Origin: Diplosphaera chodatii
Lineage: Eukaryota; Chlorophyta; Trebouxiophyceae; Prasiolales; Stichococcaceae
Length of the DNA stretch: 64,000 nt
Assembly (NCBI GenBank): GCA_032358165.1
Contig: JAALGY010000001.1
Coordinates: 186,001 to 250,000 of the forward strand
Direction of reading: 5' to 3'
Shown here: positions 41,168-64,000 of the stretch, piece by piece
How the letters are laid out: each line of letters opens with the position of its first letter
Position numbering within the stretch: position 1 is the stretch's first letter
The notes under the pieces: model-generated
Told to the model about the DNA's origin: nothing
Databases searched by the model: none
What the model saw: only the letters and a program-made list of their open reading frames with translations
Made by a program: the position numbers and the translations under genes

Positions 41168-44100
41168 TCAGCCGACGTGCAGCTCCGACAGCATGCTGGA
41201 CCTGCGCGCGAGCGCCGCCCAGACCGGTGGCAGGGAGGCCGCCCTGGAGCGCTCGCTCTCCCAGCGCATCAGCTCCCCAAGCCGCCCGCTGACAGCCCGC
41301 ACCGACTGCACCGCATCCGGCGAAGGCTGCCGCTGCATCCGCGCCCCCGCCGACAGCGCTGCCAGCGGGGCGGCGTCTGAAGCTTGGTGCTCCGGAGGCA
41401 GCAGAGCTGAGGCGGCTGCAGCAAGCCGCGAGGGCCGCCGTGCTGATATGAATGGCGACACGAACGCCTGCTGAGCTGGCGCCGTCGCCGGCTGCTGTGA
41501 AGCTGCCGCCGGGCTGCGCTGCAGCTCTGGAGACGGCTCTGCTGCTGCATCTGCCTGCCGCTCCGCCATCGCCGCCGCCACCGCCGCCGCCGCCTCGGGG
41601 ATGGACGCGTAGCGCAGCAGGCTGCCGCGGCGCACGGCATCGCGGCTGCCCGCCCGCGGGCTGAGGGGCCCGGCGCTGGGCACCCGCACGCTGGTCGCGC
41701 GGCTGCCGGCTTCTGATGCCGGCACAGAGGGAGGCTCTGCCACGGTCATGGCCAGCGCCTGCCGGCGCAGCACCCCGATGTACAGCGCCTGGCGCTGCTG
41801 CTGGTTGTGGCGCGCCAGCTGGAACGTGTCCAGCACGTGCTGCCGGTAGGACATGCCCCACACCCGGCGCTGCTCGGCCACCTCGGGGCTCACCAGCCGC
41901 GCCTGCAGCACATGTGTGGTCAGCAGCATCAGCATGCTGGAAATCATACGGGAGCTGCTGTCCGGGCGTCCGATAGCAAAGTCCAGGCATCCACTAAGCA
42001 TGGTCCCTGCGCCAGCTGACACACACGGCCAGGATTACAGCGCACCTTGATGTCGGCTTCATCAACCTTGGGCGGCTGCTGCAGCTTGGCAACCTTCAGC
42101 GATGGCAGCATCGCCATCACCTCCAGCTGCGCGTACGCGATCATGTCCGGGTCGCACGCGGCGCACAGCCGCCCAAAGGACGCCGGCTTGTCCTTTTCAC
42201 CACCTGACAGACACCAGAACAGCGCCTCAGCTAACCCGCTCCTGATGCTTGCATGGTTTGATAGTGCCTGTTGCTTGTGTAGGTTAGAAGTGTGCGCAGC
42301 TCCTGGACCCTGGCATGCTCGAGGCAATGGCATTGACGTGTATGTGCATGGGGCAGGCGGTGTATCACGGGGCAGCAGGCTAGGCCGTTGCTCACCAGGG
42401 GGCGCGGCCAGCAGCTCGGCGCAGCCGCCGACGTTGGTGCACACCACGCACAGCCCGCACAGCGCCGCCTCCAGGATGCTGATGGGCAGCCCCTCGCTGA
42501 TGGACGACTGCAGCACACATACCAAAGGGACTCGGACTCAGGCTACCTGTCCATGTCAACAGCAGCTTCAGAGGAAGCAGAGGAAGTCATTTGGTGCCTT
42601 TCATCGGGGGTAAGGTCTGCTGACCTGCAGGTAGCACCAGCCCTGGGCCAGCACTGCGGTGGGCTTGCCCAGGCCGCGCAGCTCCACGTTGTTGGTCAGG
42701 CCCAGGGCTGTGATGAGCCCGCGGCAGCGCTCCACGTAGCCCGCGTCGAAGGTCAGCGACCCGTACACCAGCAGCTGGTAGTCTGCAGCGACAGCAGCAA
42801 GCAGCACTCATGTCACCAATGCATCGAAAAAAACCAAGCATCCGCTGCGGCCTTCGCACCTGCTGTCAAAGCAGCATCTGCAGCGCAGCCCCATGACCTC
42901 TGCCGCTCAGTCAACCAAAAATGGCCCCCACCTGTGACGTGGTACTTGTGCACGATGATGGCAGCGGCGCGGATGGCCGACACGATGTCCTTCAGCGGGT
43001 ACACGTGGCTCAGCATCACGGTCGTCGGCCGCGGCGGCCGTGGCGTGGTGCTGATGGGGTACTGGTCGATGTCCACCGCGTTCAGCAGCGGGCTGATCCG
43101 GCTGACCGGCGCGCCCAGCCACGCCTGCAGTTGTTGAGGGACCAGTTGATTGGTGCTCAGCAGGTGCTTCGGCGACAGGTGCTGTGGCCCAGTCGCGAGG
43201 AGAGCCAAGAGCAGCATTGCACAGCGCGATGGCGCGGTGTGCCTGCTGCACTGCGGTGCGGCATGGCTGTCGCAAATGTTGCAGCATCTCAGCGATGAGG
43301 GCTGTGCCGCCTGCGCACCTCCCACTTGGTGTTAAAGGTGGCGTTGCAGGGGATGACGATGTCGCATGCAGCGTACAGGCAGCGCCCCGTCACGCGGTGC
43401 AGCCGGATCAGCTGCTCGCGCACAAACTGGGGCAACGCACGGCTCTCCAGACAGTCCCAATAGATCACCTGATTTGCCAGCACCAATGCGAGTCAGTAGT
43501 TGCACATATGCCCAGTGCAGTAGTCGTCCCACAGGTACAGTGTAGTTATCATTGAGTACAGCGCACTGGCTGGCAGCTGATGACAACACAGCTTTTGTTG
43601 CAGCTGTGATGGCATGAGACGAAACATGTCAGCAAGTGTGCTGGAGGGATAAGCACCTTCTCACGCATCAGCACGCCGTGGTCCCAGATCAGCAACGCCT
43701 GGTTCTCCTTGCGCTGCACCACGAGTCCCCCCAGCGTCTGCGCTCGTGCACAGGGCGCCTCGTCGCACGTCCACACTCAGAGGCAAGCATATGCCAACCC
43801 TCTCCAGCAAAGGGTCTCACAGCAGCATCCAGGAAGTGTCCTGCTGGGTTCTGATCAGGGCAGCAGCCAGTGCAGCTGAAAGATGGCAGCGTTTCAGGCC
43901 ACACCTGCAGGCTGTGGTGGGAGGAGTGCACGACGTCGCCGGGCGGCAGGGTGGCCGCCAGCGACTTGAGGTAGTGCTGCAGCAGGTCGTAGAAGGCGGC
44001 GAGCTCGGCGGGCGTCGGCGCCGGTCGGCTGTTGCCGTACATGCCCACCTGCGCTGCCGCAAGCGCGCCAGCGAAGAAGTCCCGCACCTGGCAGCACGAT

Positions 44101-47100
44101 GGTCTGACGTCAGTGCTGGAATCAGCACCATGGGCATTACTGTCCAATCTGAGGTACTCAGCCCTGCAGCAACTACAACCCAACGACAGGCAACCTGCCA
44201 GCGGCTGCATAAAAAACGGTCAGATGCCCAGCAGTTGGCGCATTCTGGCATCACTCAAGCGCCAGGTGAGGATTGAGAAGCGCCGCACCAGGCCCGACTG
44301 CCAGGTCATGTCCCAGCTGTAGGCCTGGAAGTAGGCGTGCAGGCGCAGCACGCTGCCGGCCAGCGCCTCCAGGTCGGCGGCGCTCAGGCAGGACGCCTTG
44401 CACATGGCGCCCAGCACGCCGCCCAGCGCCGGCAGGAAGTGGGCCGCGATCGCGGCGGAGGTCGTGGCGGCATTCCTGCAGCAGCATGCACGGCCTGGCC
44501 GTCAGCATGACACGGCCGGCGGTGCGGGGGCTCGGCAGCAGCAGCGGGTGCAGCAGCAGCAGCTGCGCGGCAGCTGGGCTGCGCCAAACGAACACCAACC
44601 ATGGACGCCGACTGATGACAGGTGTTGTCGAGGATATGCAGCGGGGATCAGCGGCACCTGCGGGACAGCTCGTGGAAGGGAACCGCCGCCGCCAGGGACT
44701 GCGCGGGGGACTCGTGCTGCAGGTCCCACTGGGGGACCAGGTCCACGCGCGCCGTGTGCTCCCCGGGCACAAATTTCGGGATGACCTGCAAGGCAGGCAG
44801 CGATGCAGCTCAGGACCTGCGGCAGACGACCGTCACAGCAGCGCCACCTCCTGTGCAGCAGGAAGCAGCAGCGGCCTGCGGAAAGGTTGAACCCTCATGT
44901 GCTCAGTCGCGTGCCGTGAATGGGAGTGAGAAGGCGTCAAACGAGGGTGATCGGCGCTCGCCAGCGTCAAATTCAGTCACTGTGCACGCCCCGTGAGCAG
45001 GCCCTGCAGCTGCTGACAGCAGCTCACCTGCTTCAGGTCGTTGGCGATCTCGGCCTGGCAGCTCCACACCACGTCGGGCAGCCCCTCCAGCACGATCTGG
45101 CGGCAGGTCGCCACGCCGCCACCGTCCATGGGGTAGGTGCCCGAGTCGAGCGCCGTGACGCGCAGCTTCCGCGCGGCCGCCCCCTCCCGCGGCGACGACG
45201 GCGCGTGGTCGATGGAGCCGACGGCCACGGCCAGCTCAGGGTCCAGGCTCGACTCTGGGATAGACACAGACCAAATTTCAGTCATGAGACGTCTGCCCCA
45301 ATCTGGCAGGGTGTCATTATAGCAGATTGTCACGCAGCCAGCCAGAGCATTCCGAGGGGGTTCACTGCATGACATCTTCAAGCTGGGATCATCTCCTAGG
45401 CGTTTCCCCCTATAGCCTGTTTCAGCTTGCAAAGCTGACCTGCGGTGACGGAGGGGGCGCAGGCGCTGCGCCGCCGGAACAGGCGCCGCCAGAGCGGCAC
45501 CGTGGCGGCAGCGCCGGCGGCCAGCCCTGCGGCAGTCGGCCGCTGCAGGGCCGCCTGCGGGGCGGACACGGCCGCGCCGCCCGCATACGAGTTGCCGGGC
45601 ACCTGCAGCACACCCCACTTCAGTAAAATGCTGTAGAGGGCGGTGAAGACACAAGGCTGGCCGCTTGCAGCACATGCAGTTCCGTCTTGTTGACTGGGCT
45701 GGCGACATGAGGCCTGCATCGCACCGTGGACATTGCTGTCAGGGTGTCGATGCTGTGAGGCAGGTGGCTGAAGACGCCCGCCACGCTCATCAGCTGGCTG
45801 CCGATCGCGGCCTGCAGTGTGGGGCCAGCGGCAGTGTGAGTGTTCAACAGCACTGTTGACCATGCAGTTGAATGCTGCAGGCAAAAGCACTGCCCTGCTG
45901 CCCCCACCGTGGGCCGGATCCAGTGGAAAGCGTGAGTGTGAACTCTGCATAACTGCCATGTCATCCACAGAAAAGCCATTTCCATTCGGTGGACCCATGA
46001 GGCACACCTCCAGGAGCTGCTGGTTGGCGGTGACGAAATCGGCGCAGCCGGCGTCCATCGCGTGGCGGCCCGCCCAGTAGGGTTTGAGCAGCGGCTCGCC
46101 GCGCAGCATCGCCTCATCCAGCAGCGTGGCCGTGAGGCCGTCCAGCACCGGCACCGGCACCTCAGGATTGACAGGCTTGGGCTTGGCCACCGCCGCCTTG
46201 TCGCCTTCCGCTGCCCCCTCCCCCGGCGGCGCATCTTCGCGCCCCCTGCGCAGGCCACACGCTGACGCTGCAGCCGCCGCCGCGGCCTGCAGACCCGAGC
46301 GCAGGCGGCCGCTGAACCCTGGAGCTGAGGCGGTGATGAGCTGGCGCTGCAGCTCCGCCGCGCCGCCGGCCCACGCCCACCACAGGAACGTTCTGGAAAC
46401 GCCGGCGTCGGCACGGGCCGCCTGGTACGCCACCGCGCTGCCCGCCTTTCCGCGCAGGCTGCACAGCATGGACGGGGTCAACCATCAGCATACGAGATGA
46501 AAGGCATGTGCTTAGGGAATTTCGCAGCAGCAGCACAAGGCTGCGTGCCGTGTGGCAGGGTTCAATCAGGGCTGAGGTGGTGTAGGCATAAGCATGCAGC
46601 AATCAAGGTGTCGAGATGGGCATGCCTGAGGTTGCGGGGCAGGTAGGGGGCCTCCTGCCACACAGACGCCGCCAGCGGCACGGCCAGCACCTGCAGTATG
46701 ATGGCGACAGCCTTGCAAGGTGCACCCTTATGACGTGAAGTGCACGGGCATGCAGCAGCTGCTGCGGCTGCTGCTGCTGCCCACTACATGCCATACTTTA
46801 GGTTTTGCGTCGGCAGACCACTGGCAGCAAAGGGAAAGGGACAGGGCATCAGCCCACAAAAGCATTGCCAGTACAAACTCTGTCGCTGACGACACTGCTG
46901 GTGATATGCCATTCAGTCTGGCAGGCACACCTTCAGCAGGTGGAGCACCCAGGGCGGGGTGGGCACCGGGGCCCAGGGCGCGCCGCTGCTGTCGTTCACA
47001 TACCGCATCTCGCACTCTGCCAGCACCGGCGCGGACGGCCACAGCCGCGGGGCGCCATGCGACTTGGCCGCATCGCACGGCTCGCAGGCCACGCGCCACG

Positions 47101-50100
47101 ACGCGCCCTCGCAGGTCACCTGCGCATGATGTGCCGTGAGCTTCACGATAGTGTTTGCTCTGTGTTTGCTCTGTGATCAGACTACTGCCTGTGATTGGCA
47201 CGCAGTGAAAACAACCAATTTTTGAAATGACACTCATAAGCAGGTGCAGCCAGCACCGGAGACCTGAACCTGGCCTCACAAGGACACACTGGCTGACAGC
47301 ATCTGTTGTTTTGTTTCATTTGGTTCACGACTGTGCAGTTGACGGCGCGGCAAGCTCGCTGGAATGTGGCGGTGGAAGCTCACCGTGACGCTGCGGGGGA
47401 AGGGGGCCGCGGAGTGGTGCTGCGTGCTGGAGGCCGCCTGCTGGCCCCCGCCGCCGAAGCAGAAGGCGCTCCTGGCTTCCTGCTCCCACACCAGCTCCAC
47501 AGCGCACCGCTCGCCGTTCGTAAACTGCAGCCACGGGAGGGAGCTTCTGTGAAAGGTGACTGCAACAAGCAACGGATTCGGCAGCGCGCAAGAGCAGCCA
47601 AGCATGACCAGGGCATCCCTGATCCATCCACCCTTAGGTAGGGTTGCGGCCGGCGCACCTGCATGCAGCCGTTGGCGGTGGCGAAGGCCGAGTCCGTCGC
47701 TGGCAGACCAGCAGCCGCGGTGAAGTGCAGCGTGGTTGATATGCGCGAGCCGTCGCCCTCCAGCGCCGACTCCATGGACAGCGACTGCACGCGCCCACTG
47801 TCATCATACTGCATCGCCATTGCAATGTGCTGTCAGCATCAAGCGGATGTTGCACAGCCGTGCTGCTCAACAGCCTTTGGTGTTGAGCCGCTGGCTGCTT
47901 GGTCTACAGGACACCCTCATAGCCCTGCCGCGTGAGCCACCTGATGCAAAGCAGAAGCTCGGGAAACAGCCCGCATGCAACTGGTAAAGCCTGAAGCTCT
48001 AGGGAAGCGGGGGCGCACCACGACCATGCGGGAGGGGCCCTCGCCGGATTTGCGCAGCCTCAGGGTCGCCACATCCTGCGTCTCCACCCCGGTCCACACC
48101 TGCGCACACAGCTCGGACAGCGCTCAGACATCGGGAGCCCACTGCTGCCAGCAGACTGCCGCGGCGTCAAGGGGAGGCAGAGGCATGCGGGCCACTTCCA
48201 GTGCTGCCTTGGGGTGTCTCAGCAGAGTTGGCAGGGTGCAGGGGGGTTGCAGGGCAGCACCTCGCTGCAGATGGGGGAGTGGGAGCCCAGGGGGCTGTAC
48301 CGCCACCGGGTTGCGGTCTTGGCGGCGGCATCATACTGCCAGACCGGCATCCTGCACACAGTGCCAACTGCTTCATAAGGGTGCAAACCTGCAGCTGTAC
48401 CAAAGTCCAATCCTCCAACTTCTCAGCACAGCTCTGACTCGTTTCTTGCAGCCCAAACAGAAACGCTGCTCGTGCCAGTAAGAGCCAGCAATCAGTGGCA
48501 ATGGCAAAAACCTGGCGGCAGGTGACTGGCGCTTCAGGAAGCGGCGGCGCGCCGGGGCCGGCATCACGAAGGCCGTGCGCTGCATTGGATCGCCTCCAGC
48601 TGCAAACTTTGCGCCGGCATGCGTCTCCGCCACGACTGCAGGTCAAAGCAACAAGACAGGACAGGGTCAGCAGCAACTCCATCATTTGGCTGCCCGCAAG
48701 CAGATGCAGCTCGCCATGAGACCTCTCTGACACTGCCAAGAGAAGGGCTTCGCTTTGACGTACAGCACAACATGTGCCTCGCCACAGCTATGAAAGTCAC
48801 AAGCTCGCATGTCAGCATCAGCTGTGTCTAACCCAGCTTATCTTGAGGTTTCAGGGCCGCACCGATGGTCATGTCGGGGTGGAACAGGGCACCCATGAGC
48901 GAGGCGGTGAGCTGCGCCTCGGAGTCGGGCGCCAAACCCTCCTCCGCCAGCTGCGCGTTGAACTCCTCCTCGGAGTCCGCCCCGTAGGTGCTGCCGCTCA
49001 GGCTGGTGGCGCTGCTGTGCGCCGTCATCTGCAGACAACTGGTGCCGTCGACTTAGCACCCTGGCTGCTGCTTGCGCGATGAGTGCTCATGTAGTTGCAG
49101 GGCTGCGGGTGTCACAGACCGCAGGAACTGGGACATGTACAGGACGCGTTGTGGCACGAGGGTGCGTGCTGTTTGCAGCGTGAGGGGCGACAAGGGTGTG
49201 GCACGGCGGAACAGGCTGCACAAGCTGTTAAGCCCCACCTTGCCGGGGGAGGCCAGGGTGCGGAATTGGCTGGTGCTGATGCCCTGGCGGCCGAAGGCGA
49301 GGCACAGCTTCAGCACGGCGTCGGCGTCGTAGCTGGCGATGGCGGCTATCGGTTTCGATGCCGCAGCCAGCAGCCACGTGTACATGCCAGGCCACGCCCA
49401 GAGCATGCGACGGCACAGCGCCTGCGAAACCGCCTGCAAGCAGAGGATTATAAAAGGGTCGAACCTGTGGCTCTGTGCTGTTTGACATCCTGCAACTGAC
49501 AGCTGACCCCAAGTCACCAGGTGCAGGGCTTTACGTGGCCACTGTGAACAGGTGCTCTACCATGAGCCTAACAGCTGATACAGTGGCTGATGCTGTTCAC
49601 GTGGGTCACATCATTATCATTCCATCTGAGGGTCTTACCTGGGAGCAGACCGCCAGCAGCTGCAGCGCCTGGAACCCCGGCAGCAGCGCCCAGCGGGACA
49701 GGCCGCGCTTGCCCTGCAGCGCCGCCGCAGCCTGCGCAGCAACATGGAAGCCATGTTGGCAAGCAGGGGTCCACTGGGTTGGCTGCCCGACACTTGCCTT
49801 CTGTCATCGCCATGCAACGCCACTTGACGCGCTGCAGCAGGTTTGATGGGCAGGTGGGTAGGCGGAACGCACCTCAGGGAAGAATGAGATGTCCCCCATG
49901 GCCGCCAGGAACAGCAGCCGCAGGCCCTCCTCCAGGGCCACTGACAGACGCGCCGCCAGCGGCAGGCCGCGCTTCTGACCCGGCACTGCTAACTCCGCGG
50001 AAGTCCCGGCGACCAGGCCGCAGGGGGAGGAGCCCGCGCCGCCCGCGGGGGCTGCCAGGCAGGCCGCCCGCACCGCCAGGGCTGCGCTGGCCGCGAGCGT

Positions 50101-51913
50101 CGCGCGACGGAAGGCACGCTCTGACGCCTGCGCCGCCGCCGCCGCACCCGATGCAGCGTCGCCGGCGCTGGCGCACCCGCTGCTGGCGGCGGCTGCGGGG
50201 GCCACCGGCGCAGAAAAGAAGGTGCGCTGCTCGCCGAAGCTGACCACCTCCAGGGCGGTGGTCAGCGAAAAGGCCGCCGGCCTGGCGTCGGCCGCTGCCG
50301 CGGGCGCTGCCGCATCACCTGAGCTGGCGGCGGCGGCGGCGGCGGCTGAGCATGCGACGGCCATGAGCGTGCGCCGTGCCTCGGCCGTCAGCAGCTGCCA
50401 TGCAGAGTTGAGCAGCGCCGGCGTCAGGTCCGCCACCAGATCCTCTGCACCCTGTCCATGAAGTGAACACCAGAGCTTCGACCACAGCCAACAATGGGAG
50501 GTGCGACAGGAATTGAACAGAGTCTGGCTTGTGTGCATGAGGGTTGTCTACGAGCAGGAAGGCACATGTGTGCCAAGTGGTGGGCCCTGACCTCGGCAGC
50601 GTAGCCCAGTGCTACAGGGAGACCCGCCAGGTGGCGCACGGCGCCGTTGACGATGCTGAGCGGCGTGCGTCCCACCTGAGCACAGCACGAGTGCTGGTCA
50701 ATTTTAGCACACAGGAAAGCTCTGTATCAGCATCTTGTCATCATCACACCTGAATAGCACTCGAGTCAGTGACCCATTGGCGCATAGTCAGCATAATTAA
50801 TGCTGACTATGCGCCAGCTTGAGCCCCAGCAGCAGCAGCCAGCGCAGCCCAATACCACTGCATTGCCCAGCAAGCAAACTGCACAGGTGGTGGCACATGT
50901 GGCAGCTGTCCCCGCACCATGATGGGCAGCGCTGCGGGCGGCAGCGAGGCCAGCTCCTCGGCGACTCGGGCCGGCACCGCACCCTTGCTGGCCCCGCAGG
51001 CGAACTCCCACATGCAGGCGTTCAGGTGCGCCAGCGTCACGCCGCCGGTGGCCTGTGCGGAACCACAACAAGCAGGGTTCACCACAATGGCAAAGACGTC
51101 ATCATTGGGCCGCCTGCCGGGGCGCAACCGATGTTCAGGGGGAGGCGGAGGGCGCCTTGTCATGGCAGCAACCGCAGGGCTGGTTGGCTGCAGCACAGTC
51201 CCCAGGCATGGAGCAGTTCCACAGCGTTTGGAGCTCAGCGCCTCACCAGGCCGGCCCTGCGCTGCCGGTGGATGAGGGACTCTAGGACGACCGCCTCCGC
51301 CACACGCGCCGCGACCTGGTCGGCGTTGCACCTGGTGCCGCCGGCGAGGCCCGGCAGCCGCTCCGGGGGGGCCGACACGCCCACGAACACGTCCAGCTTC
51401 CCCTCCGACGGCACGCCCAGCGCATAAAACTGCACAGCACGCACTTCGAAAAGGTTATCTGTCAGCGCAGCCACAGCAAAGCAGCTCACGACCACCAGGC
51501 ATGAGGTGCGTTGCTGGGAGCATGCAGCAAGGTGCCCAGGAGCATGACTGACGAACGGGAGCATCCGCAGGGAGCGTATTCTGGGCGGGCACCTGGGGGG
51601 CGCCGCCGGTGCCGTTGAGGGCGTCCAGGGGGACCAGGTGCGCTCTGGTAGTCCCGGCCGTCCAGCCCGCCTCCACCGCCGGCAGCAGGGGGCGGAACTC
51701 GGGGTACGCGAGTGCCAGCCGGCCCAGCCGCGCGCCCGGGGAGTTGGGCGCGGCGTACGCCGCTGCCACATCCCCCTGCCATGCCGCCAGCGCCTGGTGG
51801 TGGTACACGTGGCACATGTCGGCTGGATGCCACGCGCTTCTGACAGCATTCTTGTCTCTCTGCCTTGTGGGGGCTCTGCCTGCTGGCGCTTCCGGTACAA
51901 GCAGGCAGCCTTG

Positions 51914-51948
<35 letters not shown>

Positions 51949-54900
51949 GCTAACATGCACTAAACGACCCTGCTTGGTCCCAGGAGAAAGGAGCGTCGCG
52001 CTGCATCTGAGAAGTTGTGTGTTCTGGAGCTCCGACAAGCCTGCGAGACTGCGTAGCCAAGGCCGCGGTCGGGCGCGACGCGGCAGGGCGCTGTGGTGCT
52101 GTGGCGCAGCCGCCACTCCGCTGCTTCCAGCTGCCCGGGCTCCACGGCAGTGCACGACAGCGCGTGCTGCCCGCTCGTGTGGCTGCGCGCCATCTTGACC
52201 ATTGTCCGCAGCCTGTGCCACATGGCAACAACCAGCCGTCGACTCCTTCTCCCTTTTCGCTGAAAGGTTGTCTATGTCAGGATGACGTAGGAGCATGCAA
52301 TCTGCGCATGGCTACGATATCCTGCTTGGGTTGCACATGGCAAGGAATGAAAGCAGCAGGCGCTGAAGAGGGCTGCCCAGTCTTCTGGCAGGTACATCTG
52401 TGCCTTGCACTTGCTGTCATGGCAGACCACCTTACGAAGGCTGTCACAAATCTCACTGATTGGCGGAGCGCTCGACGAGGTTGCCCTGGGCAAGGCGGTG
52501 CAGCAGGTTGGCCAGCGCCAGGTACGCCAGCCCCGTAGCGGCCACCGCCACCGGCGGCACATACTGGAAGTTGGAGACGGCCTTCGCCAGCGGCAGTGCC
52601 ACCGCCTGGGAGACCAAACCACACATCAGCATGGTTCTGATTTGACAGGCAATGGTTTCACTGACTGCATGATGCCTGTGGGCGATGGCTGACTTTGCTG
52701 CATGTGTCTGGCAATGCCTGCACTGGACGTACAGCCCTCTTCGTCCATACATGTTGGCCGCTCACCAGCATGACGAGCAGCGCGCCCAGCATCGCGGTGA
52801 CGTCCTGCCGCGGCGGCGGCAGCACCGGCCGCATCGTGTACTGCCACCGCACCTGATGAAACAGCAGATCAGAGGTCGGATGCCGCTGTCAGCATGCTTG
52901 AGCAGCTGCTGCGGACGCACCAGTGAGGTTATCCCGGCATCCAGGCTGCAGTGTGTTGTGCAAGCAGCCGGCGTGTGCAGGCGCACCAGGATCATGCAGC
53001 TGAAGCCGAAGACCATGATGCAGTAGCCCACCATCTGCGCGGTCAGGCCGCTGACCACCTGCAGGGGGGGACTACAGAGTCGTGAAACCTGGGACCTTGA
53101 TGCAGCATGTGCCTGAGCACCAGCAGCTGACAGGCAGACTCGCAGTCGGCTGTCCCACCAGCCTCTGGCTGCAGGCTGAGTGCAAAAGCACAGACAACAG
53201 CTGCTACCGTCACACTGCGGTACCTACACAAAACAATGCGAACAACGTGCACCTGCAGGTAGTCGCTGAAGTTCTTCACTTGCGGGTCGCCCCGCGTGGT
53301 CTCCAGCAGCACCAGCAGCAGCAGCCCCGATGCGGCCATGCCCGCGCCCCAGTGCACCAGCTGCGCCAGCGTGCGGACCCGGAACCCCGTGAACCGCCGC
53401 ATCAGCCCCCTGTGGCCCTTGCCGCCGCCCGCGGCACCCTTCCGCAGCGCACGGGCGGCCTGCAGGATGTAACTCACGTTCTGAGCTCACATCACCTATC
53501 TACACATCTGCACCAACTGTTCATGGTGTTGCAGCCAGGCATGCGAACGAGGCGGTGCTGATGATGGCATGCTCAGCAGTCGGCAGGCACTTGGTGACCG
53601 GCACGAGAATGCAGTTCACTCCGTGAGTTTGGAGCCTGACACAGGCATCGGCAGCTAGATGACAGGCGCACCTCGTAGCGGGCCCGCAGGATCATGCACC
53701 ACTCCAGGTAGGAGCCCGCCAGCAGCACATACGCCGTCGCCAGCAGCATCGCGCCGTTGTTGGCGCCCAGCCACGCGTTGCCGACCGCCCACTCGCTGCA
53801 GATGCAGAGGATGGCGCGTCAGCTAAGTGAGGCAGCCAGAATGAGTCTGCCCGGCCTTACTGTGTATGCGCTTGCAATGCATTTATTCAAACAGCTGCAA
53901 CAGCAGCATCACCCCACACTATAGATAGTGATGCGCCTCTTACTAAGGCGACCACGGCCCCACCTGAGCCAAAAGGGCACGGTGATGAGCAGGTGGTTGA
54001 GGCCCCCCTGCGGTAGCGACCATGCGTAGTCGGCGTACAGCAGCGGCAGCCGCAGCCGCCGCATCGTGCGCAGCTTCTGCTTCAGCGCGGCCGCCGCGCC
54101 GGCGGCAACCGTCAGCCGCTGCTTCGGCTCACACTTGGCCGGCACCAGCGTCTGGTTGTGCAGCGCGTTGTGCAGCGCAAACAGCAGCTGCACCGCCGCC
54201 TCGCTGCAGATCGGGGAAATCACAATGTCAGCAGCATGGCTGCAGTCAGCAGTCTGCGCCGTGCCAAGAGCAAGTGTTCCTGACATGGTACCCGACTGAT
54301 CACTGCAAGCTTGCACTCAATTGTCTGCGCAATGCTGCAGAAGCACACCTGACTTGCTCGATGTCGGATGTCTTGGTCACTGCCACAGCCTCCGCAAACA
54401 GCCGCACGTGCGACCGCATGTGGAACCACAGCAGCACCGCCGCCAGGAGCAAAAACAGAGCGAGGCCGACCAGATTCGACAGCACGGAATCGATGTCTGG
54501 GAAGCTGTAGGATGCGCGGTTGAATGCCACCTGCGAGGAATCGAAAGTGGTACATAGGGTAACAGACCCATGTGCGTCAAAAACGTCACGAGAGCAAACT
54601 GCAGGCTTGCAGGGGGTAGCAGAAGGACTTCCCACTGGTTACCTGTGCCACAAAGACTGCGAGCACGGTGCGGCCGCCGCGGCTGCCCCATGCATCGTTG
54701 CTGACCACGGTGGTGTAGATGAACAGCAGCTGCACACGATGCCATAGCAGCGTTAGCTAAACTTCACTGTGACAGTCACAAAGTATGCCGGCTCTGCAAT
54801 GGCCAGGCCAGCATGGCGCCATCAGGCATGGCGCAGGTGGGGATCCCGCAAATGGTCTCTCCCAACTTCAAATCATCGATCTCACCAGCGTCAGGTACAT

Positions 54901-57900
54901 GCACAGCAGCCAGAACACGGCGCTGGAGAACCAGGCGAGCGCCCAAGAATCATAGCGCAACAGCACGTACAGGCCCGGGAAGGGCGCCGTTGCGGTGTAG
55001 AATATCAACGATGCCACCAGGCCCTGTAGCACAATAATGGGTTTGCGGGTATGCCATGCACGCGGCGCTGAGTATATATACGTATCGACGTGTGTGACAA
55101 GCAGCCTGCACGGCTGTCTCAGGACTATTAAGCTGGCTCTGCGAGACGCACAGTAACATGAGTTACAGAAGGAGTGCAGCTTTGTCTCACCTGGCAGAGC
55201 AGCACATTGCGCGCGGGGCCCGCAAAGCGGTGCTGCTGGTAGCACAGCATCATGAGCAACAAATTGAAGAATGCGCCCACCGCCAGGTAGGCACAAAAGA
55301 ATCCCCAAAACATCCACCTGCGGGCACAGCACGGCGTCTCGTTTAAACGGCTACATCCCGTTCAAAGGAAGGGGCGTGGGGTCTCAAGCAAAACCATAGC
55401 AGGTGCAGAAATTACTGCGGACGTTTTGTACTTTCGTGATCTTGTGCACTTGGCAGGAGCGCACTTGGCGTGGTCGCGGTCAAGGCGGCCATTATCGAAT
55501 AGGCCAGAGTGGAGGCTGGTGCTGGACGCCCAGTACATGATGTAGGGCAGCAGCCAGAACAGGCCGTTGCCAACCGCGACGGTGAACCCGGCATGCGGGT
55601 CCTCAGCATCTGCCGCGGGGGAGGCGTCTGGCGGCGCCTGCTGCAGCGTGGCTGCCGGCTGCTTTGCTGTTGACTGGCCGTCCGCTGCAGGAAGGATAGT
55701 AGACACAGTTCGAGCCACCGTCCCATACAGAACTGGACTGGCAGTGTAGATCTGTGGGGCCTAGCACCATCCGACGATGCCAGCTGCAGCAGTGAACAGC
55801 ATGCACTCATCAGCAGTGCGTTGCCATGTGCCAGGCAGCGGAGAGATGGTCCGCACCCTGGCGTGCACGCAGCTGCTGCTGCAGCCGCGCCCGCAGCAGC
55901 CGCCCCAGCTGGAACTTGTTGACGCCGAAGTAGGGCTCCACCTCGTTGGAGATGCCCTGCAGTCCCAGACACTCACTGGCTGCAGCTGGCTGACATGACC
56001 TGAGACACCGCTGCGTTACGAAATGCATTTGCCACCCGAAATATCAAACCGCTGCTCCCGCTCACCAGCTGCTCCAGGTAGACGACCATGATGTCGGGGT
56101 CCTGCAGGAAGGAGTCCTCGCTGTGGTTCGCGTTCTCCACGATCGCGTTGAGCAGCCCCGGGATCGCCGTCTCCAGGCACACCCGCTGCACCTGTTGACG
56201 GCAGAGACGTCAGTGTGCCAGCAGCAGCAGGAGGCCAAGCATGGACACGAAATGGTCACATGCAACCACGCTGGGCACGCATGCCCCGCGACTGCTTCTG
56301 GTCATGGCCACAAGCAAGCTGCAAAACTAGCTTCGGCATTGTCACTGTTGACACATTGAACCACCTGGCGCAGGACGGACACGGTGCCAGTGTTGACGGC
56401 CCGCTCGCGCGCCATCCAGAAGGTGACCGCCCCCAGCAGCTCCTCCCAGTACTGCTTTGCCGACAGCTCCTGACATGGATGCACACACGACAACCTCAGG
56501 GCACGCTCTGCTGTTTGTCAGACGGACGACCTCACGCACGTGTGCGTCCCCAGTGCAACATTCAATCGTGTTGGTGACATGAACCTCCATCACCATCAGC
56601 ACAAGCCAGGCGCTACCTGCGGATCAGCAGGCGGCTGGTAGCCGGGCAGCTGCTCCGCCTGGTGCTGCAGGGTGCACTGCCTGGCCAGCTCCACCCACGC
56701 CGCATGCGTCGCCTGCAGACATGAGCAGGTGTGGTCTGGCCCCCACACTTTGCAACGGCATCAGGCTGGGTAGCGTGCAGCACCTTGCAAGCTGCACAGG
56801 CGAGGGCAAGGTGGGCTGGCAGGCCTGAGATGGGCTGGCGGCTGATGCTAGGGGGTCCCACGACCAGTGCGACTGCTCTGCACGTCACCCATACATCCGG
56901 AAACCCGTCTGCCAGCCTTGAATGCAGGAAGGACCTGCATCCAGGCGTGGTCGGGCGCCAGCTGCAGCGCAGCTGCGTCCACCGCCGCTGTGATCGCTTC
57001 CAGCTGCCGCGCCGCCAGCGCCGCAAGCCGCTTGGCCTGCAGCCCGCGGTGATGCGCGGGCTGCTGCTGCGGCTGCTGCTGCTGCACCGCTGCTGCTGGC
57101 TGCGGGGCCTCGACCAAACCAGCGCCGCCGGCTGCCAGGGCCTGTGTGCATGGGAAGACTCTCATTCTCAGCTCCATGTCCAGACCTTCGCCGCGTAACA
57201 GGTTGGTCTTGTTCTGCAGCAACTGTATTGAGTACATTCAGTACATGAGCATCATATAACACGCCTCTGCTTCCGGGGCACATCGTGAAGGGCAACTGGA
57301 CAGCCTGCTCGAGCTCCCTGCCGTGGACGGCTGTCTGGGAAACCCTGCTGTTATGTGCTGGAAAACCCTGCAAACATGTGTGTGTCAGGGGGCACTCGAT
57401 GCCACCAGCCAATCAGAGAGTGCCGTCAGGCGGCACTGCCGCACCTGCAGCAGGTCGGCGGCGGTGACGCACTCGAGCTCCTCGCGCACGCGGCTGGACA
57501 CCAGCGTCACACCGTCATCGTCGCTGCGGGCGCCGTCGGCGGCGCCGCGGCTGCACAGGCCATCTGTGCGGCAGCAGCCGATGACCGCCTCTGCCAGACA
57601 CGCCACCTCATGCGTCTGCCCCTGCAGCGGTGGCACAGCCTCACATCGGTGGGAATGCATATGGGAGGCGCAGCCCGGGGTCTCAGGCCCAAGCTTGTGG
57701 TCACCCAAAATGTGGAGGTTGAGGTCTCACTGCTGTGAGATCGGTGGCGTGTGTTGCTGGAAGCCCTGTGCCTCGCCTACCTGGAGCAGCAGCAGCGTGT
57801 GGACGAGCGTCTCCAGCACATCGGGGCACAGGCTGTCGATGTACACGTGCACTGCTGGGTCCTCTGCCGTTGGCGCCGCCGCGACTGCCCAGAAGCGCAC

Positions 57901-60900
57901 CGGCGCGCATGCTGCAAAGGTTTTGGACAAGCGGGTGTCAGGCACAGAACACATGCAATGGCAGAGCAGGACACTCAAAAGGTTGGCATGCCCACCGGTG
58001 TTCAGCATGGTACGCTGGGCAGGCGTCTGCCAGAGGCCAGGATGCTGGACTGTTTCACGGGAAGCTTGCCACGGCATCACCGTGAGCACCTGCGGGCTCG
58101 GCGGTCATGGCGATGCGGGGGCACAGGTGCACCGCGATGCGTCCCGCGGGCAGCTCCCCCACCAGCTGCTGCAGCACCGCCTGCAGCGGCGCGGCCAGCG
58201 GCGACAGCGCCGGCCCCGGCAGCCGCATCTCCTTCAGCACCAGCTGCACGCACGCCTGCGCACCGCAGAAGGGCGCCATGTCAGGCGCATTGTGGCCCAA
58301 ACGCCACTGGACTGCTGCACACTGCTGAGGTTGGCCCTTTGCCCCGTGTGCGGTGTTGCGTGCGTGGCACACGGCATGGCAAAGGTCGCCCTGCCACCGC
58401 ACCCACAAAGTGCTGCGTGGCCACCCACCGTGAGGCTCTTGACGGACGCCGCGTCTGCCGACAGGCCCACCACGCCGGTCGCCCGCAGCGTGTGGCCCTC
58501 TGGTAGCCCGGACCACAGGCCGGTGGCCAGGCCCCCCTGCAGCACGTGCAGCACGCGGGCGGCGGCGGTGCTGTCGTCGGCGGACCTGGCGCCCAGGGGC
58601 GCGACCATGCAGGGCATGAAGGCGGCGCCCTCGGGGCCCGCCACCCCCCGCCGCTGCAGCAGCGCGCCCAGCGCCGCCTGTCGCTGCTTGGCGCTGAACT
58701 GGCCGCTGTTGCCGCTGCTGCTGCTGCCTGCTGCTGGCGTGCTGTCGCTGACGGCAGCAGCAGACTCGTCATGCGAGTGCGGGAAGCTGCTGAGGAGCTG
58801 CGCGATGCCCGGCAGGCGGCCCGGCGCCGGCTTGCTGAGCTGGCCCACCGCCACCACCTCGGCAGCGTACTCAGCCCACGACCTGCAGCAGGATGGGCTC
58901 GTTGCTGTTCTCAGCTCTGGACGGTGTGCGCATGACGCTGGCTGGCCGCTTGAAAGCCTGAAAGACGGCAGTACTGGGAGACCCTCTGGCGATCCACCGC
59001 AGACGGGCCTGAAACATACAGCGCCGCCTCTGGACGGTGTGCACATGACGGTGGCTGCTGCTCGAGCTCTGAACGGCGGCGGTATTGGCCGACCTACAGC
59101 GGATCACTGACCTGTCGGCGGGGCCGCTGCGCCAGGGCAGGCGGTGGTACCCGGTCACCTTCTCCCCTTCGGGCTGCGGCTCCTCGCCAGTGTGCATGAC
59201 GCCCAGCATCCAGTTGTTCGCCAGCCGCGCGACTGCACGCGCAGGAAAGCCACAGAGTAAGCTGTGAATGATTGCCAGATAGCGCTGGGACCACGGCGGC
59301 ACTGCAAAAGGCCTCGCACCGCAGCCTTGGCGGGCGCTGTACAAGGCGATGGTGAAGCAGGGGATGGCCTCACCTGAGAGAGCGTCGCTCAGGTTCATTT
59401 TGGCGAGCTCCCCTGGCGGGCACTGCACTGTCTCCGCTGCCGCTGCCTGCTGGCTGTCTGCACCATCCGGGGCTTTGGCCGCCGGCTTTACATCTGCCTT
59501 CGTCTCCGCCTTCCGGGCGCCTGTGATCGCCGCCGAGTCTGCCGAATGCTCGGCTGACAGCGGCAGCAGGGCCTGCGAGGCGGCGCCGCCGGCGCGCGTG
59601 AGCCGCCAGCCGCAGCACAGGCTGCGCAGCGCGCCGCGGACGACGCCATTTTTTCGCCGCAGCTGCGCCGCCGGCATGCCGAGGCCCACGAACAGCTGGC
59701 AGTACAGCAGCTCCAGCAGCCACACCAGCCAGGTGCCGTAGGTGTACACCAGGAACTGGTCCGTCCATGACCTGTCGTTGGTTCACACACATGCCAGCTG
59801 GATGCGTGACTGTGAACCCTGGCAAAGTCCTGACACCGGCACGGCGCAGCAGCACCATCATCAGCGCAGCCCACACACCGCATGGTGCATAGCTCGCAGG
59901 TGTGAACGTGCACACGGCTGTGGTTATGAGGCGGAACCTATGCAGGTCTGCTGACCTCAGGGCGATGAGCAGGAGGCCCGTGAGGACGTATATCGCTGCG
60001 ACGGCGCCGACATAGCGGCTGCGCAGCCGCAGGCCCCCGACCAGCCACAGCGCCGCCAGCGCTGCCGGCAGCCCCACGCCCAGCGCCGCAAAGTACGCTG
60101 GGTTGTGCTGCCATCCTGCAGTCCATGCAGCAGCAGCAGCTCAGCAGATGCGGCGCCGACGAGGCCCATGGCAGCGCCACCATGGCATCGTGAGCATGCC
60201 TGGAGCAGCTGTGCACCGCGCGTGGAGCTGGCCAAGTGGTGAACGTTACGAGCAGCTGGAAATGGCAGATTGGTTGCTGCTACGAAGCCTATTTCGGGCT
60301 TTCTGCACAAGGCTACAGGGCGTCAGAAGCTGGCATGTCAGCCAGCAGGGGGTTGCGTGCCTGCTGGTGGAAGGTGTTGCGGCAGCAACTACATTCATAG
60401 CTGTAGGCTCTACCTTCAAGGAACAGCCGGCGGGAGTCAAAGCCGGCGGCTTTCAGGCCGAGCTCCAGGCCGAGGTGGCAGCCCACGCCCAGGCACAGGG
60501 AGGCAATCCAGCACAGGGCCAGCCACCGACGACGCGGCGCTGGCTGCTTGCTGTCTGTGCTGCATGTAGCATTCGCAACGCCGGCCAGCGCGATGCCCAA
60601 CAGCCCACATCTGCGAGCAACAGCACGCGTGGCACCATAATCGAGCAAGCCGAAAATTCATGAGGGGCTGACGGCAGGGCAGAGCTGTCTCTCGCTGCAA
60701 CTGCGTGCTGCAGTGCATTGGCCACTGGCAGAGCTAAAGGAGCTCGCACGTGAGCGCCGCGATGGTTGAGCTGCTCCACAGCGTCGGCTGGTTCAGCCAC
60801 ACCGACGGCAGCTGTGTCAGTAGTAGGGCCTGCAGCAGCCGCAGGTGCGAGTGGGCCTGCCTGCCGCGGAATACGCAGCGTGCCAGCAACGCCTCCAGAA

Positions 60901-60952
60901 TCACCGACGCCAGCAGCGCCACCACCGTGTTGCTCTGCGGTGGGCCCGGCAT
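41168..60952 (-). CDS. Giant polytopic membrane glycosyltransferase with PelF-type GT4 domain (about 3,300 aa, about 55 exons)
   Basis: A single chain of phase-compatible minus-strand exons covers nearly 20 kb. The first nine are 60952-60750, 60610-60414, 60115-59956, 59771-59374, 59232-59112, 58882-58429, 58255-58090, 57911-57781 and 57588-57445. The protein starts with membrane segments, has a second block of roughly ten membrane spans (exons about 55.9-52.5 kb), a long middle region, then a PelF/DUF3492-like plus GT4 domain. Landmarks there are LDSGTYPMDGGGVATCRQIV, LLIWDHGVLMREK, VMLSHVYPLKDIVSAIRAAA, LVYGSLTFDAGYVERCRGLI and SISEGLPISILEAALCG, the last with the GT4 EX7E pattern. A Ser/Ala-rich tail ends at 41168. 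By family it should polymerise sugar from a nucleotide-sugar donor and export it across a membrane, as bacterial PelF with PelG or the large fungal GT4 membrane proteins do. Several internal boundaries, and the join near 42000, remain uncertain; two adjacent genes cannot be fully excluded. Confidence 0.82.
42046..45254 (-). other. PelF-like and GT4 catalytic region
   Basis: Exons include 45254-45028, 44087-43905, 43737-43657, 43468-43319, 43124-42932, 42782-42625, 42507-42396 and 42203-42046. Order of motifs: TYPMDGGGVATCRQIVLEGL; VDLVPQWDL; DVVHSSHHS; WDHGVLMREK; ACDIVIPCNATFN; ISPLLNAVDIDQYP; HVYPLKDIVSAIRAA; ERCRGLITALGLTNNVEL; SEGLPISILEAALCG followed by TNVGGCAELL. This is the same order as bacterial PelF (EGTYPYVxGGVSSW, LTEHGIYxRER, GRVVPIKDIKTFI, SISEGQPLVILEA). 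Confidence 0.88.
50779..50815. repeat. Perfect 16-bp inverted repeat in an intron
   Basis: GGCGCATAGTCAGCAT, AATTA, ATGCTGACTATGCGCC. The stem is perfect with a 5-nt loop, in an intron of the giant glycosyltransferase gene. No target-site duplication or second copy was noticed in the window. Confidence 0.85.
51915..51947. repeat. (CAG)n microsatellite in an intron
   Basis: About 11 CAG units between predicted exons of the giant glycosyltransferase, therefore intronic. Confidence 0.8.
52455..55930 (-). other. Second membrane block (about ten spans) of the giant glycosyltransferase
   Basis: Successive exons encode hydrophobic segments such as GLFWLLPYIMYWASS, WMFWGFFCAYLAVGAFFNLL, AWFSSAVFWLLCMYLTL, LSNLVGLALFLLLAAVLLWF, NHLLITVPFWLR, GAMLLATAYVLLAGSYLEW, GMAASGLLLLVLLETT, QMVGYCIMVFGFSCMILV, MLGALLVMLVS and VAVAATGLAYLALANLL. 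This many spans suggests a transport channel fused to the catalytic domain. Confidence 0.7.
59374..60952 (-). other. N-terminal membrane block of the giant glycosyltransferase
   Basis: Exons 1-4. Hydrophobic stretches: TVVALLASVILEALLA, LQALLLTQLPSVWL, WLALCWIASLCLGVGCHLGL, LPAALAALWLVGGLRLRS, VGAVAAIYVLTGLLLIALR, and WLVWLLELLYCQLFVGLG. Exon 4 also carries a Lys/Ala-rich cytosolic-type stretch. The predicted start is the ATG at 60952; about 740 bp separate it from the AGM1 stop. Confidence 0.7.
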
Positions 60953-61690: not shown

Positions 61691-63906
61691 TCAGAGGCCG
61701 CCGGCGAGGCGCTCCACCTGCCTCCCCACGGCCGCCGCCAGCGCGTCCGCCTCCTGCTGCGTGGCTGCTTCGGCGTACACCCGCACCACATCCTCCGTTC
61801 CGCTGGGCCGCACAAACGACCGGCCTGCGGATCAAGGAAGTGCATTGCTTAGATATGTGCCCAGCGGCTGTGTGCAATGCCAGCGGCTCCTCACAGGCGC
61901 TGCAGCCGATCCGCCAGCACCGGCATTAGCCAGCTCCCTAAAAGGTACAGGGGAGCATATGCGCAGGCGCAGTCCCCCCGACACCGCACCCTGCAACATC
62001 TGGGCCTGCGCCACCTGCTGTGGTCGCGGCCTTCCGCCACGTGCAAGCCAAGCCCGTCAGACTGCAGGCCCAAACCTCGGCGCTGATGCCGGCCGCTGCT
62101 GTTTGAGAGGCGCATGGCCTTGGGACGGCTGTGCACAGGAACTACATCAGCGCGGTGCGTTGATGAGGAACGCTGGCGTCTGAGTCGCGGGATTTTCCCT
62201 TTGGACCTTCTTTTTGGAGTAGGGTGAAGACTCCTCTGCAGTGGCAGCATGCACCTGAGGCGACTCTGGCGACCTCGGCGTCGATGGCAGCCTGCAGCCC
62301 GGCGGGCGCCACCACCCGCGTCTCGGCGTCCGCCGTCTCCACCACCGAGCGGTCTCTGACCAGCACCTGCGCCGCAGCAGCCGCCTGGTCAGTGTCCACC
62401 AACGAGCGGCGTTTCGCCAACACGTGCACCGTGGCGGCATCCCCGAAGGCTGACACTGGGCGGTCCTTGACTGGCACCTGCGCCACAGCAACAGCCTGAT
62501 TAGTAACTGGTCGATGACCTGCCAGCTGGCACCTGCACTTTATAGTACGGTACATGGGCAACCTTTTGTTGCCAGAACAACCCTGAACCCTGGAAAGCAC
62601 AACCAGTGGGACAATGCGAAGCACGGCTGCAGATACGGCACCAGGTGGCCAGCGCTGCACACGCCATCAGGCAGTGCGCACCTTGGACCCACAGCTTGGG
62701 CACATCAGTTCAGTGGGCGTGGCCGTCAGGTGGGAGGTGGGGTGTCAGGCGATGGGGAGCCCCTATCACCTTGGACTGGCGGCTGGGCAGGTCGGCGTAC
62801 AGGGCGGCCCAGTCAGGGAGGCCCCACCCGCGCCGCCGCAGCGCCACCTCCACCAGCAGAATGCCGCTGATCGCGTCGCCCACCGCCTGCAGGAACGCCG
62901 ACTGTCATCATCACTAAGAACACCAAGGATGCAGAGTTTTATCTTTGGCTGCGCTCGTAAGATGAGAGATGATTTTCTACAGTCGACCAGGGACATAGGA
63001 ATGCTGCCCCAGCGTCACATCCAATCGCCCGCCGCCCGCCTGCACCCTCTGATCTTGTCTTGCGGTTTGCCTGTGACGCCCTGCCACCGCCGCTGCAGCA
63101 TGGCGGACGCCATCAGAACAGCATGCTAATGCTGTGGCATGCTAATGCTGTGGCAGGCAGATATAGTCCCACCTGGTTGTTGAGCTGCTCCAGGGCCAAC
63201 AGGCCGGCCGCCGCGGCGTTGGACGCCGCCAGGGGCCGCAGCCGCGCCACCAGCGCCGGCGCAAACAGCACGGTGCCGTGGCCGTTTGCCTCGAAGTAGA
63301 TGCCCACGTCGAAGCGCTCCGCGGCATGGTGCAGGAACTTCACGCCGGTGGGCGTCACCGCCACCGACACCCCCGGCAGCTGCTCCCTGCACCGGGAAGG
63401 CTGAGGTTCAACCTGCATGTGAGCCCAGGCCTGGTCTCATGCAAGCTCGGGTGCAATCCTCGGGAGCAGTGACTGTGACGCAACCAAAGTAGTAGTTGTT
63501 TGCAGGAGCGCCGGCGCAGGACAGCATCTGCAGCATGCAGGGCATTGCCACAACCGCCGACGCGTGCCTGATGAAGCGCGTCGAGCCGCCGTTGGCGTAG
63601 GCTGTCTGCACGATGCCCACCTGAAGCAGGGAGATACGACGTCGGACCTTACATCGGCTATGACGTAGCGTACGACAGCAAGGGGCAGCCCGCTTGAAGA
63701 GCAATCCCTGCAGAGTGCGCCAGCAGTTCGTGTCAGGGCTCACAGTCACGGGCGGCTGATCCGCCGGTAGCTCCGCCAGCAGCCGCTGCACCGTGAGCGC
63801 GGACAGCGCCGCGATTCGGTCGCCGTCCAGCAGCAGAAGGCCGTCAGCGTCGTCCCGCGGCGTGAAGTACACCAGCCGGTCCCCGTCGCCATCAATGCTT
63901 GCACAC
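61691..63906 (-). CDS. AGM1: Phosphoacetylglucosamine mutase (AGM1/PGM3), C-terminal half
   Basis: Converts GlcNAc-6-phosphate to GlcNAc-1-phosphate in UDP-GlcNAc synthesis (cytosol), feeding N-glycans, GPI anchors and amino-sugar polymers. Predicted exons: 63906-63744, 63620-63568, 63386-63173, 62886-62770, 62366-62255 (or from 62477) and 61824-61691 (TGA). The N-terminal half, with the active-site serine, lies beyond the right edge. Metal loop: [12 protein letters not shown]. Family signatures: [36 protein letters not shown] followed by [10 protein letters not shown] (sugar-binding loop), [20 protein letters not shown], and the phosphate-binding loop [18 protein letters not shown]. The length of the visible part matches the human and yeast enzymes except at one exon with duplicated acceptor sites. 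The donor at 63567 appears to be GC. Confidence 0.96.
62255..62477 (-). other. AGM1 exon with duplicated, in-frame 3' splice sites
   Basis: On the minus strand, a branch-site-like, acceptor and exon-start segment occurs twice, 111 nt apart. One copy is GCTGTGGCGCAG then GTGCCAGTCAAGGACCGC; the other is GCTGCGGCGCAG then GTGCTGGTCAGAGACCGC. Use of the inner site (62366) gives a protein matching AGM1 from other organisms. Use of the outer one (62477) adds 37 residues in frame. Confidence 0.75.
63122..63153. repeat. 16-bp direct tandem duplication in an AGM1 intron
   Basis: CATGCTAATGCTGTGG occurs twice back to back, about 20 bp from the donor of exon 63173-63386. Confidence 0.75.
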
Positions 63907-64000
63907 CTGCGCAAAAAAGGTCCTCATCCTTCGTTTTCTCAACTAGCTTCCAGAAACACACTGGCACAAGAGCACCTGTGACACAGGATGTCATAAGGCC
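63907..64000 (-). other. AGM1 intron, continuing off the right edge
   Basis: Upstream of the exon ending at 63906. The minus-strand sequence ends TTTTTTGCGCAG, a normal acceptor; no coding features up to the edge, so the next AGM1 exon is outside the window. Confidence 0.6.

Follow-up and report, generated by a model that had tools for sequence, protein, structure and literature searches.

The window that we analysed, a 64-kb stretch of the Diplosphaera chodatii genome (C1:186001-250000, C1 being contig JAALGY010000001.1; 85.57 Mb in 55 contigs for the whole genome), carries on its minus strand a gene, A, that is confirmed as one gene for a giant PelF-type membrane protein, read through a predicted exon model. 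Its in-frame ATG at 60952 and its stop at 41168 are identical to the bounds given in a preliminary description of this DNA, and the layout of the protein, the neighbouring genes and the further synthase copies are collected in Table 1. Rfam and tRNA scans of the 64-kb window gave no matches.

Table 1. The synthase gene, the parts of its modelled product, its copies and its neighbours (window positions, unless a contig is named)
Feature	Location	Strand	Basis
Giant PelF-type synthase gene (A)	41168..60952	-	paralogue-guided model, 57 modelled exons, 3172 aa; membrane-region search
N-terminal membrane block, ~aa 1-222, six hydrophobic spans	59374..60952	-	hydropathy; first exon uncertain
Domain D1, ~aa 512-688, copy 1 of internal duplication	57088..58255	-	hhalign D1 vs D2
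Main membrane block, ~aa 789-1383, predicted MOP-flippase-like fold	52457..56191	-	models of Trebouxia and Thermoascus homologues
Domain D2, ~aa 1428-1628, copy 2 of internal duplication	50592..51793	-	profile alignments
~aa 1629-2432, no recognised domain, model least certain	45501..50451	-	model versions differ
DUF3492 part, ~aa 2433-2721, motifs DSGTYP..GGV and WDHGVLMREK	43319..45165	-	profile searches, alignment
C-terminal GT-B half, ~aa 2722-2975, SHVYPLKDI and EX7E motif SISEGLPISILEA	41764..43124	-	profile searches, alignment
Low-complexity C-terminal tail, ends SSMLSELHVG-stop (paralogue B: SMMLTELHAG-stop)	41168..41763	-	reading of both genes
AGM1 (phosphoacetylglucosamine mutase)	62713..64000, on past window end	-	PF21404 36.1 and 74.4 bits, two exons, cutoff 27.1
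Paralogue B	~C1:296-313k	+	collinear blastn blocks; ~48 kb from A; membrane-region search
Synthase copy	C51:1669-1672k		membrane-region search
Synthase copy	C51:1729-1732k		membrane-region search
GNA1-like acetyltransferase (GNAT)	C1:227-373k		PDB 3t90, 9.2e-14
UAP1	C1:227-373k		8.8e-26
UDP-hexose 4-epimerase	C1:227-373k		8.9e-133 to solved UGE2
GFAT, three genes	C1:227-373k		2.7e-85 for joined exons
Agd3-like, four genes	C1:227-373k		one with joined exons 2.6e-53 to solved Agd3 6nwz, near full length
Spherulin4, two genes	C1:227-373k		profile matches
GH114 exon	C1:227-373k		26.3 bits, below cutoff 27
TPT-like transporter exon	C1:227-373k		21.4, below cutoff 30

The splice model was obtained with a custom two-sequence dynamic programme that admits GT-AG introns only and is guided by A and its paralogue B as a pair. 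Neither the model of A nor that of B (53 exons, 3156 aa) has an internal stop, and the two proteins are 65% identical across 3084 BLASTP columns. Three model versions of A diverge most at the N-terminus and at aa 1660-2430, and some ends were placed manually; the first exon is uncertain because B lacks an in-frame ATG where A has its start.

Hydropathy of the modelled protein shows two membrane blocks, at aa 1-222 and about 880-1375, and the N-terminus of B has a similar set of hydrophobic spans. D1 and D2 lie on either side of the main block and represent one duplicated domain (hhalign prob 97.8, E 7.9e-13, against 0.1-0.2 for three controls), for which we found no Pfam match and no name; Pfam matches are likewise absent from aa 2010-2397, and within the membrane block no similarity was found between its first and second half (prob 1.0). 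At aa 2433-2975 the protein matches DUF3492 with 54.7 bits (cutoff 23.3) and Glycos_transf_1 with 55.4 bits, the gene-model protein reaches 109 bits against the NCBIfam PelF equivalog (cutoff 100), and it retains four PelF motif regions, with an intact EX7E (SISEGLPISILEA) among them. The preliminary description had seen two blocks of membrane spans in one protein and a C-terminus following PelF motif by motif, and both observations hold for the modelled product. Matches to cytochromes and O-antigen enzymes in a PDB search were set aside as weak.

Copies of the synthase and the genes around them

A blastn comparison of the window with C1:250001-370000 reveals short conserved blocks, collinear between window positions 41.7k-59.8k and paralogue B. 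Searching the genome with a 404-aa membrane region gave 36 exon matches (E <= 0.001) in the four places shown in Table 1; a 58-aa GT piece has an extra, C-terminal-only match at C51:1650k, where the membrane-region search has none, and a partial relative of the synthase was found by blastn at C1:331-333k. For the A-B comparison as a whole dN/dS is 0.40; the ratio is lower in the membrane block, at 0.25, and in the C-terminal half of the GT domain, at 0.16. In that half (window 41764-43124; C1:311.4-312.9k) dS is 0.157, compared with 0.38-1.06 in the other parts, a drop suggestive of gene conversion between the two copies. We also note that a gene family (ELAAACLQAVAANP...) with no Pfam match recurs near synthase copies, at window 37667-38350 (minus strand), C1:315995-316195 and C1:336004-336156.

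Genes of hexosamine supply and of GAG type surround A in the interval C1:227-373k, which includes B as a second synthase. Among the families searched at C51:1613-1744k there are two synthases, three Agd3-like genes, three GFAT genes, two Spherulin4 genes and one GH114 gene (188 bits). The two intervals, drawn after the matches had been seen, make up about 0.32% of the genome and contain all 35 of the Agd3_CE exon matches found genome-wide, 49 of the 61 GFAT-profile matches and six of the ten Spherulin4 matches (four of the four over the cutoff); a control stretch, C1:100-180k, has no GFAT, Agd3, Spherulin4 or epimerase. Judged by these homologies, the algal set is made up of the same gene types as the fungal GAG cluster plus a putative supply route to UDP-GlcNAc. 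A fungal-like identity was considered for the cluster epimerase, but the enzyme looks ordinary, its best solved relatives being ordinary UDP-glucose 4-epimerases.

Other genes were noted in passing. Putative exons of a P-type (heavy-metal-like) ATPase were recognised by eye at C1:259-263k, inside the cluster; GH114 genes also lie off the clusters, several per place, at C45:499-505k and C17:170-177k; and a GFAT/glmS match at C46:1816976-1819126 is a single 733-aa open frame (556 bits with neighbours), unlike the intron-rich cluster copies, and on this evidence is a bacterial-type gene or a contaminant.

Relatives of the synthase in bacteria and other eukaryotes

A homologue search with A found at least 44 proteins of 1928-4408 aa at E <= 1e-3 among 7989 candidates scored. 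The matches listed include giant homologues from Trebouxia, Sphaeroforma, chytrids, an anaerobic fungus and ascomycetes, and a CFRG-tagged protein that is presumably from Creolimax; the closest relatives in this search and a second one are those of Monoraphidium (50%) and Trebouxia (46-47%). The Trebouxia homologues are single chains of 3175 and 2892 aa and, together with the collinear and open second copy B, they bear out the earlier proposal of a single gene of about 20 kb.

Similarity among the giants extends beyond the glycosyltransferase. An algal profile lacking the GT domain was compared with ten homologue groups, with reversed controls; it is collinear with the ascomycete set over aa 526-1730 (983 columns, prob 99.2), and the probabilities are 98.6 with the chytrids, 92.3 with the ichthyosporeans and 94.4 (413 columns) with P0041/P0042/P0044. 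Eight of the ten groups score 77.8-99.2, P0006/P0007 and P0016 only about 52, and the reversed controls 0.1-1.9. This collinear homology outside the GT domain, along with the cluster of GAG-type genes, supports the likeness to the fungal GAG synthase pointed out in the preliminary description.

We constructed a tree of 56 rows, comprising 29 of the at least 47 homologues found, A, B and a sequence designated L029, 12 bacterial PelF proteins and 12 other GT4 proteins (sucrose synthases themselves not included); the PelF rows were taken from prokaryote genomes because a second homologue search, which gave three proteins, yielded no bacterial PelF. The eukaryote giants group together in a single clade (100/100), which a 99/96 split joins to bacterial PelF and separates from the 12 other GT4 rows, in agreement with the PelF-type assignment first made; this position argues against an ordinary, sucrose-synthase-like GT4 identity, as far as a tree with no sucrose synthases among its rows can tell. 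Five algal rows (this genome, Trebouxia and Monoraphidium) are one clade (100/100), and a branch with support of 100/100 separates the algae from the 22 opisthokont rows. Several branches are long and both window rows have an odd composition, and the root among the eukaryotes is therefore left unplaced. L029 (SUTP01000071.1, labelled a Methanosphaera stadtmanae MAG) carries a fungal-type synthase piece that groups with Orpinomyces (100/99), and probably represents DNA of an anaerobic fungus that was misbinned into an archaeal MAG.

In bacteria the PelG gene lies next to that for PelF, and A had been described as joining what bacteria split into these two proteins. As regards fold, the proposal is strengthened: the membrane block is predicted to have a MOP-superfamily fold, from MOP-flippase-like models of two homologues (Trebouxia and Thermoascus), although the algal model is of low confidence (pLDDT 54.7) and the best Foldseek E values, 9.4e-4 and 4.5e-3, are weak, which we count against the functional reading given below. 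As regards sequence it is not, as comparison of the block with PelG profiles gave no significant similarity (prob 0.3-1.8) and direct homology was rejected at the level of the reversed controls (0.1-1.3). An exon-wise genome search also gave no match to a separate PelG (PF16933), which is weak evidence because such searches miss the synthase gene itself: NF038011 (NCBIfam PelF) reached at most 25.8 bits, and PF11997 (DUF3492) had no matches because its exons are short.

Proposed function and comparison with known systems

We propose, with a probability of about three in four, that A is a one-chain polymerase-exporter of a GAG/Pel-like alpha-1,4 GalNAc polymer, partly deacetylated to GalN and perhaps containing galactose. 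The clustered GFAT, GNA1, AGM1 and UAP1 would supply UDP-GlcNAc, which the clustered 4-epimerase would convert to UDP-GalNAc, and/or the epimerase would provide UDP-Gal; the cytosolic PelF-type GT4 domain would elongate the chain, and the MOP-flippase-like membrane block, flanked by D1 and D2, would pass it out. On the outside it would be deacetylated by Agd3-like CE18 enzymes and cleaved by those of the Spherulin4/GH135 and GH114 families. Alpha links are expected because GT4 is a retaining family, and Agd3-like, Spherulin4/GH135 and GH114 enzymes are known from GAG handling. What the analysis itself establishes is the modelled gene with its domains, its family relationship, the cluster and the predicted fold; the donor sugar, the linkage, export through the membrane block, the cell location and the product we infer. 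Pel is itself an alpha-1,4 GalNAc/GalN polymer (PMC9135694).

Some observations count against this reading. The two post hoc intervals contain only two of the 12 GH114 matches found genome-wide, one of the Spherulin4 exons gave no hit among solved structures, and the algal copies have other residues in place of the DK/DR motif that is seen in PelG and in most opisthokont giants. The epimerase has a valine where human GALE has cysteine and E. coli GalE tyrosine, which makes its use of UDP-GlcNAc uncertain. The same machine could use a different donor, either galactose only or GlcNAc/GlcN, and so make another polymer, with the neighbouring genes serving general wall amino-sugar metabolism. The ordinary UDP-glucose 4-epimerase relationships of the cluster enzyme, whose GlcNAc use is putative, and the many donors used by the GT4 family speak for such a product; we nonetheless think it improbable, as the Agd3-like, Spherulin4/GH135 and GH114 genes sit in the same clusters as the synthases, and GalNAc polymers are associated both with PelF and with the Gtb-type synthases of fungi (PMC9135694, PMC13245733).

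The preliminary description had also raised transfer versus ancient inheritance. If the synthase or the whole cluster had come from fungi by horizontal transfer in recent times, for example through lichen-like contact, this would explain why the gene content mirrors that of the fungal GAG cluster and why all five named proteins among the matches listed in an Agd3 search (at least 11 proteins) are fungal, and Trebouxia is a lichen partner. The many introns of A speak against such a recent origin, however, and the sampled fungi are an unlikely source because the algal synthases form one clade outside the sampled opisthokonts, which lie across the branch; we give recent transfer less credence than a different polymer. 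The tree is compatible with either an old transfer or old inheritance. In A. insuetus a synthase (P0035) and an Agd3 (P0055) come from contigs of the same length, 129611, and so may lie together. The least credible alternative is that two or more adjacent genes have been read as one, the upstream part encoding membrane protein(s) and the downstream part a PelF-like enzyme. In its favour, A is a predicted model, Monoraphidium P0045 is annotated as 666 aa covering the C-terminal part only, and C51:1650k has a C-terminal-only match; against it, the exons are conserved and collinear over 20 kb in B, single chains of similar length occur in Trebouxia, ichthyosporeans, chytrids and ascomycetes, and for V. 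dahliae a single VdGtb protein, 2856 aa long, is reported (PMC13245733).

Returning to the GalNAc polymerase-exporter, we suggest more tentatively, at somewhat short of even odds, that GAG/Pel synthesis is an old eukaryotic exopolysaccharide system, built in both green algae and opisthokonts around a MOP-flippase exporter naturally fused to a PelF polymerase; here the path from fructose-6-phosphate to a deacetylated, trimmed polymer would be encoded in two operon-like clusters, assembled independently of the fungal cluster or inherited in parallel with it. Among the papers listed in the literature searched (titles and openings of abstracts, with few subscription journals) there is no description of GAG in algae, and a 2013 survey of algal glycosyltransferases, which has a GT4 section, mentions neither DUF3492 nor PelF (PMC3797821). 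If true, our proposal would add green algae, with a full candidate pathway, to the moulds and bacterial biofilms from which cationic adhesive polymers of the GAG/Pel class are known, and would represent a rare primary-metabolite-to-polymer gene cluster in an alga. The fungal synthase is thought to polymerise and export GAG yet is called uncharacterised (PMC7329490, PMC4817252); a MOP-flippase block fused to the polymerase would be a concrete model for that export step.

Like bacterial PelF, its sister clade in the tree, A passes the DUF3492 and PelF cutoffs and shares the motifs; PelF is a separate protein, whereas in A a PelF-type domain is fused into a 3172-aa membrane protein. With PelG (EPS-E) and the MOP flippases MATE, WzxE and MurJ it has in common the predicted fold of the membrane block, from a low-confidence algal model, but no detectable sequence homology. 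The fungal GAG synthases (Gtb3/Gt4c, VdGtb and NCU05132) are likewise giant membrane proteins with a C-terminal GT4 domain, collinear with A beyond it; VdGtb has 11 predicted spans and is needed for GAG, deletion of the V. dahliae synthase abolishing GAG (PMC13245733) and that of the N. crassa synthase lowering galactosamine (PMC11356417). The algal synthase differs from them in its six-span N-terminal block and in lacking the DK motif of the membrane block. The fungal cluster of five genes, gtb3, agd3, ega3, sph3 and uge3 (PMC7329490, PMC4817252), resembles that of the alga in combining a synthase with epimerase, Agd3, Spherulin4/GH135 and GH114 genes, whereas the algal cluster adds GFAT, GNA1, AGM1, UAP1 and a second synthase, and is present twice.
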